A stretch of 64,000 nt of DNA from a virus, in the IMG/VR virus record IMGVR_UViG_3300040809_000188, positions 1-64,000 of that record. One strand, written 5' to 3'. The number at the start of each line of letters is the position of its first letter. The stretch's first letter is position 1. The translations under genes were made by a program, and so were the position numbers. Under the pieces are notes generated by a model that was not told the origin of the DNA, did not search any database, and saw nothing but the letters and a program-made list of their open reading frames with translations. Positions 2,778-48,158 of the stretch are shown piece after piece.

Positions 2778-5006
2778 ATGGTAAATATCCAGTCTAAAGA
2801 AGTCCTTGCTCGTCTGCTTGCTACTGAGAATCTTACGGTAGTTCATGAGAATGTGCAGACTGCTTCATTTAATGTTGAAGATCGTGTTTTGACACTGCCA
2901 CTTTGGGATGGCATGGAAAACTACACTTATGATCATCTAGTGGGTCATGAGATTGCTCACGCTCTTTACACGCCCGCTCAGAAGTGGATGGACGCCGCTG
3001 GTAATGGTGGTAGAGGATTTCAGTCTTTTCTGAACGTAGTCGAGGACGCCCGTATTGAGCGGATGGTTCAAAAGCGGTATCCCGGCCTTCGTAAGTCATT
3101 CATCAAGTCTTACAAGAAAATGCTTGCTGATGGCTTCTTCGGAAAAAGTTCTGAAGAAATAAATAGTTTCAAACTCATCGACCGTCTGAACGTATTCTTC
3201 AAGTGTGGACAAACTGTCGGTGTTGAGTTCAGTAAAGAAGAGAAGTCTTGGATTTCTGAGATTGACAAGGCTGATACGTTTGAGCAAGTAATCGATATTG
3301 CTACTCGTCTTTATGGTAAAGCAAAAGAAGAACATGAGGAAGAGCAACAGGCGATGTCTGAGGCTTTTGCTCAAATGCAACAGGAATACGGCGATGAAGA
3401 CACTTCCGATGAAGGCGAATACGATATTTCTGAAGGTTTCGGATACGAATCTGACATGGAGACAGAGAGCAATGATCAAGCGAAAAGCGGCTCTGAGGAA
3501 GGCGATTCGGAAGAAGACAATCAATCATCAGTAGGTACTAAAGACACCACTGGTGACGCTTCTAAGAGCGATTCAGAGGGGTCTCAGAACACTACTAGCG
3601 GTCATGACGGTGGTGAGCATGGTCCTGAATCTGTTACCGATAAGTCACTGAATGAAAACATTTCTAATGAGTTTGGTGCTGATCCTGATAAGAGATTCTT
3701 CAATCTGACACTTCCAACCAACAAAACTAAAGTGACAACTGATCGTATTGTCGATTACAAAACAGTACTGTCTCTGTTCGATGATCGTCCAGAGGCTTTT
3801 GATGATGGTGCTGAACTGCTTAAAGTCTTTCAGCGTGACAACAAAAAGACAATCAACTACCTTGTCAAAGAGTTTGAGATGAAGAAAAGAGCCGCTGAAT
3901 ACAAGCGGGCTACTATCTCTAAAACTGGTGTCATCGATACTCTCAAAATGAACAACTACATGTACAGTGATGATATCTTCAAGAAAATGACTGTGTTGCC
4001 TGAGGGTAAGAACCATGGTCTGCTGATGTTCATCGACTGGTCTGGCTCTATGGTGTCTGAGATAAAGAACACCATCGAACAGTTACTAAACCTTGTACAG
4101 TTTTGTAAGCAAGTAAACATTCCTTTCGAGGTCTATGCTTTCACCGATAGATGGGATCGTAATAACAGATATTATCATCGTGATATATTCGATCTCTATG
4201 AGATTGGCTATGACGGCGACTTTCGCTTGGTTCAGTTCTTCTCAAACAAGATGAGCCGGAATGATTATCAGAAAATGTGTAAAGCAATGCTTGCAATGGG
4301 CGAGTTCTTTGATCGGTGGAGTAATCGCTACACTATGAAATGGACTTTGCCTGGTCCTCTTTACCTTGGCGGTACACCACTTGATGATGCTATTGTTGCT
4401 GGTATGATCATTCATGATATCTTCAAAAACAAAAATAGATTGGATGTAGTGAACACAATCTATCTGACAGATGGTGCAAGCGCCGCTATGGAGTTTAGTT
4501 CCAAGGAAAAAACATTTACAGGTAAGGACGAGTACACCACCGAAAGACATTTGGACTTCGGTCGGTATTCTGGACTCGATAAGAATGTAGTATGTTACAT
4601 GACTGATCCAGTAACTAAAAAGCGGTATCGGTACAACAACGGTGAACGTGCCACGCCTCAACTGCTGAGAATCTTTCGGGATCACACTGGTTCTAACGTG
4701 ATTGGATTTCATATCTTACCTTATCGGAAGCCTTCTGCTTTGCGTGAGATTCCAACTGGTGATTATTTTGAGCGAGAGAATATGTGGGGTGATCTAAAGA
4801 AGGATAACTACTGCATCATACCGAACTTTGGATACAGTGCATATTTTGGCATTCTAGGTGGTAAAGCACTTGAGACATCTAATGGTGCAATCGAAGTCAC
4901 TGAGGATGCTACCAAGGCTCAGATACGTTCTGCTTTTAAGAAAGCAAACAAAACACGCAAGGGCAGTCGAGTTATGCTTTCCAAGTTTATCGACTTGGTA
5001 GCATAA
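2778..5006 (+). CDS. Zincin and VWA-domain protein (CobT-like)
   Basis: The protein combines two recognisable parts. Near residues 50-60 is HEIAHAL, an HExxH zinc-metalloprotease motif. In the C-terminal half MFIDWSGSMVSE is the MIDAS DxSxS metal site of a von Willebrand A domain. A long acidic Ser/Glu/Asp-rich linker separates them. Marine T4-like phages carry such genes beside a MoxR ATPase, often annotated CobT and CobS, although cobalt chelation is unproven. The start at 2778 is chosen because GAGAGG and the leader box lie just upstream; an in-frame upstream ATG at 2739 would fall inside the promoter. Confidence 0.8.
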   Translation: MVNIQSKEVLARLLATENLTVVHENVQTASFNVEDRVLTLPLWDGMENYTYDHLVGHEIAHALYTPAQKWMDAAGNGGRGFQSFLNVVEDARIERMVQKRYPGLRKSFIKSYKKMLADGFFGKSSEEINSFKLIDRLNVFFKCGQTVGVEFSKEEKSWISEIDKADTFEQVIDIATRLYGKAKEEHEEEQQAMSEAFAQMQQEYGDEDTSDEGEYDISEGFGYESDMETESNDQAKSGSEEGDSEEDNQSSVGTKDTTGDASKSDSEGSQNTTSGHDGGEHGPESVTDKSLNENISNEFGADPDKRFFNLTLPTNKTKVTTDRIVDYKTVLSLFDDRPEAFDDGAELLKVFQRDNKKTINYLVKEFEMKKRAAEYKRATISKTGVIDTLKMNNYMYSDDIFKKMTVLPEGKNHGLLMFIDWSGSMVSEIKNTIEQLLNLVQFCKQVNIPFEVYAFTDRWDRNNRYYHRDIFDLYEIGYDGDFRLVQFFSNKMSRNDYQKMCKAMLAMGEFFDRWSNRYTMKWTLPGPLYLGGTPLDDAIVAGMIIHDIFKNKNRLDVVNTIYLTDGASAAMEFSSKEKTFTGKDEYTTERHLDFGRYSGLDKNVVCYMTDPVTKKRYRYNNGERATPQLLRIFRDHTGSNVIGFHILPYRKPSALREIPTGDYFERENMWGDLKKDNYCIIPNFGYSAYFGILGGKALETSNGAIEVTEDATKAQIRSAFKKANKTRKGSRVMLSKFIDLVA

Positions 5007-47133: not shown

Positions 47134-47181
47134 AAAAGAGGTCTTGACACGGGCCTCTTTTTTTGATATAGTGATTCGTAA
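47134..47181 (+). promoter_or_regulatory. Promoter embedded in a terminator, with leader box
   Basis: AAAAGAGGTC and GGCCTCTTTT pair perfectly (one wobble) with TTGACA in the loop, followed by a T-run: a terminator. TTGACA (47144-47149) is also the -35 of a promoter with TATAGT (47167-47172), 17 bases apart, and the box variant TGATTCGTAA (47172-47181). Confidence 0.8.
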
Positions 47182-47262
47182 ATCGGAGAGGGCATTAAGG
47201 TTGGTTGGCCCACGGTGAAAGTTCCATGATGATGGTGTGGGATTGAAGTTGTCCTCTCCGAT
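47182..47262 (+). ncRNA. Candidate structured RNA near tRNAs
   Basis: Ten perfectly paired bases, ATCGGAGAGG and CCTCTCCGAT, enclose about 60 bases, within which CCCAC pairs with GTGGG. A strong promoter lies just upstream and no sizeable frame exists inside. The 5' arm holds a GGAGAGG ribosome-site-like sequence masked by the 3' arm. It could be a stable small RNA, or a leader for the membrane peptide downstream. Confidence 0.55.
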
Positions 47263-47282: not shown

Positions 47283-47357
47283 ATGCTTTGGTTTTTATTT
47301 GGTATATTAGCAGGCATTGCTGGATATAACTTCTGGCTTGCTACTTGTATGCTCTAG
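47283..47357 (+). CDS. 24-residue membrane peptide
   Basis: The frame after GGAG encodes MLWFLFGILAGIAGYNFWLA, one hydrophobic span. It lies between the structured RNA and the tRNA-Arg. A small membrane protein is plausible but not proven. Confidence 0.45.
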   Translation: MLWFLFGILAGIAGYNFWLATCML

Positions 47358-47361
47358 TTAT

Positions 47362-47438
47362 GGCCTCGTAACTCAACTGGATAGAGTAACGGCCTTCTAA
47401 GCCGTAAGTTGCAAGTTCGAGTCTTGCCGAGGTCGCCA
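47362..47438 (+). tRNA. tRNA-Arg (TCT)
   Basis: Arms GGCCTCG/CGAGGTC (one wobble), anticodon TCT in GGCCTTCTAAGCC, T-arm GTTCGAGTC and an encoded CCA. Confidence 0.92.
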
Positions 47439-47440
47439 AT

Positions 47441-47514
47441 AGAGGTATGGTGTAGTGGAAACACGACAGTCTCCAAAACTGTAAACTGAGGTTCGATTCC
47501 TTGTACCTCTGCCA
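47441..47514 (+). tRNA. tRNA-Trp (CCA)
   Basis: Arms AGAGGTA/TACCTCT, anticodon CCA in the loop CTCCAAA, T-arm GTTCGATTC and an encoded 3' CCA. Confidence 0.92.
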
Positions 47515-47534: not shown

Positions 47535-48158
47535 ATGGCAAATCATGTAACGAGTGGTATTGAAATCGTAGAAGGTAATGATGCGGTGAAAGAGTGGTTT
47601 GCATCTCTTTCAGAAAAACTTACCGTTCCAGCAGATGAGCGTGAAGGCTCTTTTGGTGGGGTGTATCGACCTGTATATGAAATGTTTGATGAATGGCCCG
47701 AATCAGAACATGATATGGACACCTATAGTTGGTTTCATGAAAACATCGGTCCTAAGTGGTGTCATGTATATGATGCTGATAGTGACAGACTTATGTTTGA
47801 ATCTGCTTGGTCCTTTCCAGAAGCATTATTCTTGCGTATTCACCAAGAGGCTTGCAAGATCGATCCTCTAGTAATCATGTCAGCGCATTATGATGATGAG
47901 ATGCCCAACTTCTTTGGTTCATGCGTGTATGCTGACGGTGAACTATACGATGAAGAATATTGGGATGAAAGCAACTATCATCATATCGAAGTAAAGTTCT
48001 GGTGGGATGAAGAAGAGGATGGTCCAGAACCAGATGACTTTGATTCTTCAGAAGCATATGAAAAAATGTGGGAAGTCATTCAAGACGACATTGATGGTAT
48101 GGTTCAGGGTGTAAAGGAATATCGTGCAGAAATGGCAGAAGAAGATGCATCCGATTGA
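47535..48158 (+). CDS. Api92-like conserved phage protein
   Basis: The protein (207 aa) begins MANHVTSGIEIVEGNDAVKE and has PKWCHVYDADSDRLMFESAW, which resembles the ferredoxin-like Api92/DUF1281 plan (xNHVTN start, Trp-rich middle, Asp-rich loops). It is strongly acidic. Function unknown; in other mobile elements Api92-like proteins are accessory genes. AAGGAG precedes the ATG. Confidence 0.6.
   Translation: MANHVTSGIEIVEGNDAVKEWFASLSEKLTVPADEREGSFGGVYRPVYEMFDEWPESEHDMDTYSWFHENIGPKWCHVYDADSDRLMFESAWSFPEALFLRIHQEACKIDPLVIMSAHYDDEMPNFFGSCVYADGELYDEEYWDESNYHHIEVKFWWDEEEDGPEPDDFDSSEAYEKMWEVIQDDIDGMVQGVKEYRAEMAEEDASD

Follow-up and report, generated by a model that had tools for sequence, protein, structure and literature searches.

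A structured RNA family with a covarying closing stem and a near-invariant core in T4-like phages

We analysed a 64,000-nucleotide (nt) stretch of viral DNA (positions 1 to 64,000 of IMG/VR record IMGVR_UViG_3300040809_000188, hereafter the window) and characterized a small structured RNA element at 47182-47262; this, the other window features described between 47134 and 47514 and the exact leader-box copies lie on the plus strand (+). The element is 81 nt long and comprises a closing stem of 13 base pairs (bp), P1, an inner stem of 5 bp, P2, and a short stem, P3. Directly 3' of a leader box, it reads AUCGGAGAGGGCA-UUAAGGUUGGUUGG-CCCAC-GGUGAAAGUU-CCA(UGAUGA)UGG-U-GUGGG-AUUGAAGU-UGUCCUCUCCGAU, and its near-invariant unpaired segments are UUAAGGUUGGUUGG and GUGAAAGUU. 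The 13-nt 5' arm of P1 (47182-47194) forms 13 contiguous pairs, including one G-U, with the 3' arm (47250-47262). An earlier reading of the sequence (the original prediction) had proposed ten perfectly paired bases closed around a CCCAC/GTGGG hairpin; all ten Watson-Crick pairs were found within the longer stem, and the hairpin is P2 (47209-47213 with 47237-47241). Between these helices lie J1/2, UUAAGGUUGGUUGG (47195-47208), J2/3, RGUGAAAGUU (47214-47223), P3, CCA/UGG with a variable apical loop (47224-47235), and J2/1 (47242-47249), which is loosely conserved with GU at its end and may pair weakly with UUG of J1/2. This extra helix was paired in 88% of cells, yet 28 of 500 shuffles did as well, so that it is suggestive and not significant. 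A G-quadruplex was also rejected, as the three GG doublets with UU spacers are not joined by a conserved unpaired fourth doublet. The folding energy of the RNA alone was 3.7 standard deviations below that of dinucleotide shuffles, which is weak evidence if taken alone. No second copy was found within the window.

Upstream of the element we found the predicted promoter with its 17-base spacing, TTGACA-17 nt-TATAGT (47144-47172; -35 box 47144-47149, -10 box 47167-47172), which agrees with the sigma-70 consensus at 11 of 12 positions. The transcript is predicted to start at about 47179, and the -10 box ends 9 nt 5' of P1. The leader box that the original prediction placed after the promoter is present as the initial transcribed sequence, GTGATTCGTAA (47171-47181), one mismatch from GTGATTCGCAA. 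The window holds seven exact copies of GTGATTCGCAA (at 2767, 5060, 21195, 21830, 22650, 52104 and 56024), and ten matches at ≤1 mismatch compared with 1.35 expected by chance. Several copies sit between a sigma-70 promoter and the start of an open reading frame (ORF), after a GAGAGG-type site, and the copies probably represent a leader common to one gene class of the window phage. Beside the RNA, the leader box is retained in close relatives only. Absent from the earlier description was a terminator-like hairpin with T-run of the upstream operon, AAAAGAGGTC/GGCCTCTTTT (47134-47164), which has the -35 box as its loop and whose arm and T-run double as the promoter spacer. This composite layout is kept in five related loci (L001, L003, L017, L025 and L033; loci are cited by such numbers), where the arms are altered yet paired. 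Since the -35 box forms the loop and the arms differ but pair, one short stretch seems both to close the upstream operon and to start the RNA.

The first two relatives were reached via a neighbouring 207-residue protein and carried the same core with a different stem; the remaining members came from five pattern scans of IMG/VR. A covariance model trained on 32 sequences matched 67 places in 75 loci at E ≤ 1, plus L104 and L105, although its E-values are only approximate and a match is guaranteed for the training members. Outside the training set, L003, L033, L034, L053, L056, L060, L062, L064, L077, L104 and L105 still fitted the model, with E of about 1e-7 to 1e-23. L003 and L031 are one contig. 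We excluded L043 as a chance match (21.8 bits, E 0.037), and pattern matches in L027, L040, L044, L045, L048 and L049 did not fit the model and were likewise attributed to chance. The RNA is thus carried by more than 60 distinct IMG/VR contigs besides the window, with 39 distinct sequences including that of the window.

In every case where genes were examined, the carriers were T4-like. Protein scans of L009, L012, L026, L028, L047, L053, L064 and the window revealed T4-like core genes, namely those for gp41-type helicase, UvsX, gp43-type polymerase, the gp5 and gp6 baseplate proteins, the major head protein and the portal. The nearest cultured kin in several searches were the Melnitz phages of OM43 methylotrophs, and HTVC008M. 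By the covariance model these phages lack the RNA (a 12.8-bit match in Melnitz falls inside a coding sequence), and a search of 12 marine T4-like records with the same model gave chance or transfer RNA (tRNA)-Leu matches only. A blastn search against INPHARED was empty, where the low-complexity filter may weaken the GGTTGGTTGG query, and exact core patterns occurred 0 times in 84,980 bacterial and archaeal genomes, a search that diverged copies would escape. At the gathering cut-offs of Rfam 15 the RNA matched no family, and the window yielded only tRNAs; at E ≤ 10, a 233-base stretch gave chance matches to SraG (13.3 bits) and Thr_leader (12.2 bits). On the family loci Rfam found tRNAs and one glutamine riboswitch elsewhere, nothing more. 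That riboswitch (RF01739, 41.6 bits) lies at 2806-2858 of L077, on the same contig as the RNA. Searching the literature by motif string returned no matching paper, though an earlier description may exist elsewhere. Because there was no Rfam match, no paper by motif string and no homology to the T4 RNAs C and D considered below, the RNA appears to be a new family among phage structured RNAs.

The alignment of 32 sequences showed double compensatory changes at all 13 pairs of P1. The covariation score of the stem was 0.636 compared with 0.185 in shuffles, and none of 500 shuffles reached it. Likewise, there were 176 double compensatory cells compared with 54.6 in shuffles, and 94% of cells were paired compared with 70%; when the partner was slid by one column as a register-shift control, pairing was about 47%. 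P2 was paired in every sequence (100% of cells) and covaried at two positions, with CTCAC/GTGAG, CGCAC/GTGCG and CCCAG/CTGGG replacing CCCAC/GTGGG. P3 was paired in 95% of cells, with CGUU/AACG and CUC/GAG variants recognized by eye. The 5' arms of P1 fell into about ten unrelated clusters (for example CCCCAGCAGCCTC and ATAGAACAGAAGA), whereas J1/2 was ultraconserved, its mean pairwise identity being 96% compared with 42% for P1; J2/3 stood at 87%. These values indicate that selection acts on structure in P1 and on sequence in the loops. G-U outnumbered A-C in P1 by 17 to 11, which mildly favours the given strand. An additional hairpin in J2/1 of L053 and L081 indicates that insertion is tolerated on that side. 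The original prediction had named non-compensatory stem substitutions in relatives as the outcome that would speak against it; the substitutions we found were compensatory. Because the core is near-identical while the closing stem has been rewritten by paired mutations, the conclusion that the stem closes a real functional RNA family is well supported by the aligned sequences.

We then compared the genomic settings across lineages. P1 is preceded by a consensus promoter in the window phage and its close relatives (L001, L003, L017, L025 and L033), in all L028/L032/L063-type phages but L057, and also in L012 and L060; shuffled upstream sequence equalled the promoter score in at most 7 of 300 trials. 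In these lineages the -10 box ends 4-10 nt 5' of P1, which suggests that the RNA forms the 5' end of the transcript there. Close relatives of the window phage and nearly all L028-type phages have an ORF that starts 18-25 nt past P1, and such ORFs encode membrane peptides of 24-34 residues or signal-peptide proteins of 140-200 residues. The next ORF in L057 is a 57-residue non-membrane frame, and in L059 no ORF comes next. In L012 the order is a promoter matching 12 of 12 consensus positions, the RNA, P1 running into TTTTTTT, and then tRNA-Thr, with no ORF next to P1. Other lineages (for example L005, L006, L021, L026, L047, L064 and L072) have neither a promoter beside P1 nor an ORF just behind it; here the RNA lies in noncoding sequence, often with a stem-closed element that we call A4, tRNA or tRNA-like genes, and a TATAAATG box resembling a late promoter. 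P1 runs into a U-tract in L012, L047 and L050 (and in L051, when the full stem is read). L047 and L050 have this U-tract and no adjacent promoter, whereas the window has the promoter and no U-tract. As the genes after the RNA vary from membrane peptides to signal-peptide proteins to none, the RNA does not track one gene.

In the window itself, the element was originally described as an RNA with no gene. This was wrong for the transcript, since an ORF with a GGAG site for a hydrophobic membrane peptide of 24 residues, MLWFLFGILAGIAGYNFWLATCML (47283-47357), lies just outside the stem and starts 21 nt after it. Counterparts of this peptide, MLWFLTGIFVGIAGYNFWLATCMV in L003 and MRGFLWFVCGLLLGASLFALWLVSIL in L001, begin 20-25 nt past P1. 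The six-codon frame MMMVWD noted inside the element does exist (47226-47246); given the absence of a ribosome site and of conservation, we read it as coincidence. Downstream in the same direction, ARAGORN called tRNA-Arg(UCU) (47362-47438) and tRNA-Trp(CCA) (47441-47514), and tRNA-Arg(UCU) is also near the RNA in L001, L003, L007, L017, L025 and L033. The 207-residue protein (47535-48158) shows weak similarity to Pfam DUF1281_C (Api92-like, ferredoxin-like), below the curated cut-off, and has no homologue in INPHARED.

Several further features were seen in the family loci. Element A4 lies about 100-250 nt upstream of the RNA in L006, L008, L021, L026, L047, L052 and L105. It is a stem-closed GAGAGACTTCTGGA-hairpin-TAGRYC...ACTGYTAGTCTCTC, often directly downstream of a TTGACA/TATAAT promoter, with apparent covariation in the inner hairpin, and may represent a further phage RNA family that is not yet listed. 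In L035, L042, L054 and L072 an extended noncoding sequence, AAACCCCAGTTAAACCGTGAGTAGG...GAGAATTATATTTCCCC..., is conserved at about 60-350 nt upstream of the RNA and could be a larger structured RNA. A tRNA-like sequence with long odd arms occurs in L029 (about 4120-4230), where it ends GGTTCAATTCCTTACCCTTTCACCA and ARAGORN makes no call, and in L105 downstream of the RNA. Two L028-type phages carry two-piece transfer-messenger RNA (tmRNA) genes (L034 1183-1513 and L056 10613-10974), and a two-piece tmRNA has also been reported for Melnitz (PMC9004378).

How might the RNA work? We give about even weight to the explanation that the family (~80-90 nt) is a phage-encoded small RNA acting in trans via its conserved loops. 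Host RNA polymerase would initiate from the sigma-70 promoter, a few bases ahead of P1; the RNA would thus form the 5' end of the transcript, and the 13-bp P1 would join both ends and confer stability. Where P1 is followed by a U-tract (L012, L047, L050 and L051), intrinsic termination could release the RNA; where it is followed by an ORF or by tRNAs, as happens in the window, processing by nucleases could do so. The unpaired UUAAGGUUGGUUGG and GUGAAAGUU, positioned by P1, P2 and P3, would then bind a conserved partner, most likely a protein; the loops would serve as the binding surface and P1 as a clamp whose sequence is immaterial. Such action in the infected cell would parallel the role supposed for the stable RNAs that the tRNA cluster of T4 encodes. 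We infer action as a separate RNA because lineages with no attached gene retain the complete molecule, because L012 is a complete promoter-RNA-terminator unit, and because the downstream genes are unrelated. The "stable small RNA" of the original prediction is supported by the covariation, the ultraconserved core, the promoter at the 5' end, and the lineages with the RNA in noncoding sequence, in tRNA clusters or before a U-tract. Other observations weigh against action in trans. The start and end of the RNA are predicted from sequence, the window and L028-type phages have the ORF 18-25 nt past P1 as expected of a cis-acting leader, and most members are without a clear U-tract after P1. The loops paired with E. 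coli ribosomal RNA as antisense no better than shuffles did; the J1/2 candidate on 23S (12 bases within 2156-2171, -16.8 kcal/mol) was equalled by 28 of 300. In addition, because members were found via core patterns, the invariance of the core is partly due to ascertainment; the P1 covariation is unaffected by this.

The main rival is that the RNA is a cis-acting 5' leader, which would sense a ligand or protein or stabilize the 5' end, and so set the translation or lifetime of the following operon of exported or membrane proteins and tRNAs. The ORF close behind P1, with its own ribosome site, in the window phage, its close relatives and most L028/L032/L063-type phages is consistent with this idea, as are the membrane or signal-peptide nature of most products and the often CUCUC-like 3' arms of P1, which could pair with a GGAGA site. 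There are also precedents, since the wcaG and manA RNAs of marine phages are 5'-untranslated-region riboswitch candidates and the Downstream-peptide RNAs precede short ORFs (PMC2864571). However, other lineages keep the complete RNA with no adjacent promoter and no ORF behind it, at 13-14 bp P1 is a very stable helix to act as a switch, and the downstream genes share no common pathway (including the non-membrane frame of L057 and the lack of an ORF in L059). A riboswitch would be expected at a constant position ahead of a coherent gene set; we found an adjacent ORF in some lineages only, with unrelated products. We consider a cis-acting leader rather unlikely. An RNA-based processive antiterminator like HK022 put, forming at the start of transcription and staying on RNA polymerase to read through terminators of tRNA or early operons, would account for a promoter-proximal, structured RNA with conserved unpaired bases, and for the terminator-like stem between promoter and tRNA-Thr in L012; it is improbable for an RNA that in many lineages lies far from any promoter.

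The tRNA neighbours raise another idea, that of a tRNA-like RNA or tRNA relic with P1 as acceptor stem, J1/2 as D-loop and J2/1 (GGUUCAAGU) as T-loop. J2/1 of some members reads GUUCAAGU, and in three cyanophages the model gives weak matches (13-16 bits) to tRNA-Leu genes, but with E of 0.5-2. Neither ARAGORN nor the Rfam tRNA model RF00005 makes a call, the RNA has no D or T stem, the T-loop C is not kept (the window has AUUGAAGU), and P1 has 13 bp and no CCA end, so we regard this origin as very unlikely. The decoy proposed originally, in which a 5' arm resembling a ribosome site titrates an RNA directed against leaders, draws on the GGAGAGG within P1 of the window. That likeness is paired and lies in the unconserved P1, with the loops conserved instead; because it is not kept in relatives the idea fails, and we give it almost no credence.

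To return to action in trans, a more specific version is a tentative suggestion. In this version, the GG-UU-GG-UU-GG loop of an undescribed, phage-specific trans RNA of marine T4-like viruses might bind a conserved component of the host (RNA polymerase, the ribosome or a nuclease) for host takeover or counter-defence, and noncoding arrays next to the tRNAs would hold the RNA along with one or more other new structured RNAs. That about 30 core bases stay near-unchanged while everything else in the molecule varies points to a partner that is specific and under constraint. T4-like phages rank among the most common marine viruses, and only a small number of noncoding RNAs are known from them. With the covariance model, members of the family can be found in any virome or metatranscriptome, and E. 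coli can serve as a test system for this short RNA, which brings its own promoter.

Finally, we compared the RNA with known systems. The HK022 put antiterminator RNA is likewise structured and lies right at the beginning of a phage transcript; its architecture differs, and many members of the new family are not promoter-proximal. The wcaG, manA, PhotoRC-II and Downstream-peptide/glutamine RNAs in Rfam resemble it as structured RNAs that come from marine T4-like phages or from marine sequences and in some cases stand before short ORFs, but the new RNA has another structure and is not tied to photosynthesis, sugar or nitrogen genes. The T4 RNAs C and D (rnaC and rnaD; species 1 and 2) are small stable noncoding RNAs beside tRNA-Arg in a T4-like phage, listed without function, and the window RNA shares their location in a tRNA cluster, with tRNA-Arg(UCU) and tRNA-Trp downstream. 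They differ in length (119 and 139 nt), fold and sequence. The covariance model, run with filters off, had no match in the T4 tRNA cluster including rnaC and rnaD, and the RNAs are not homologous by any test here. By analogy of setting and kind, RNAs C and D nevertheless are the best parallel to the new RNA, which may give a handle on the old question of the role of stable RNAs in T4-like tRNA clusters.
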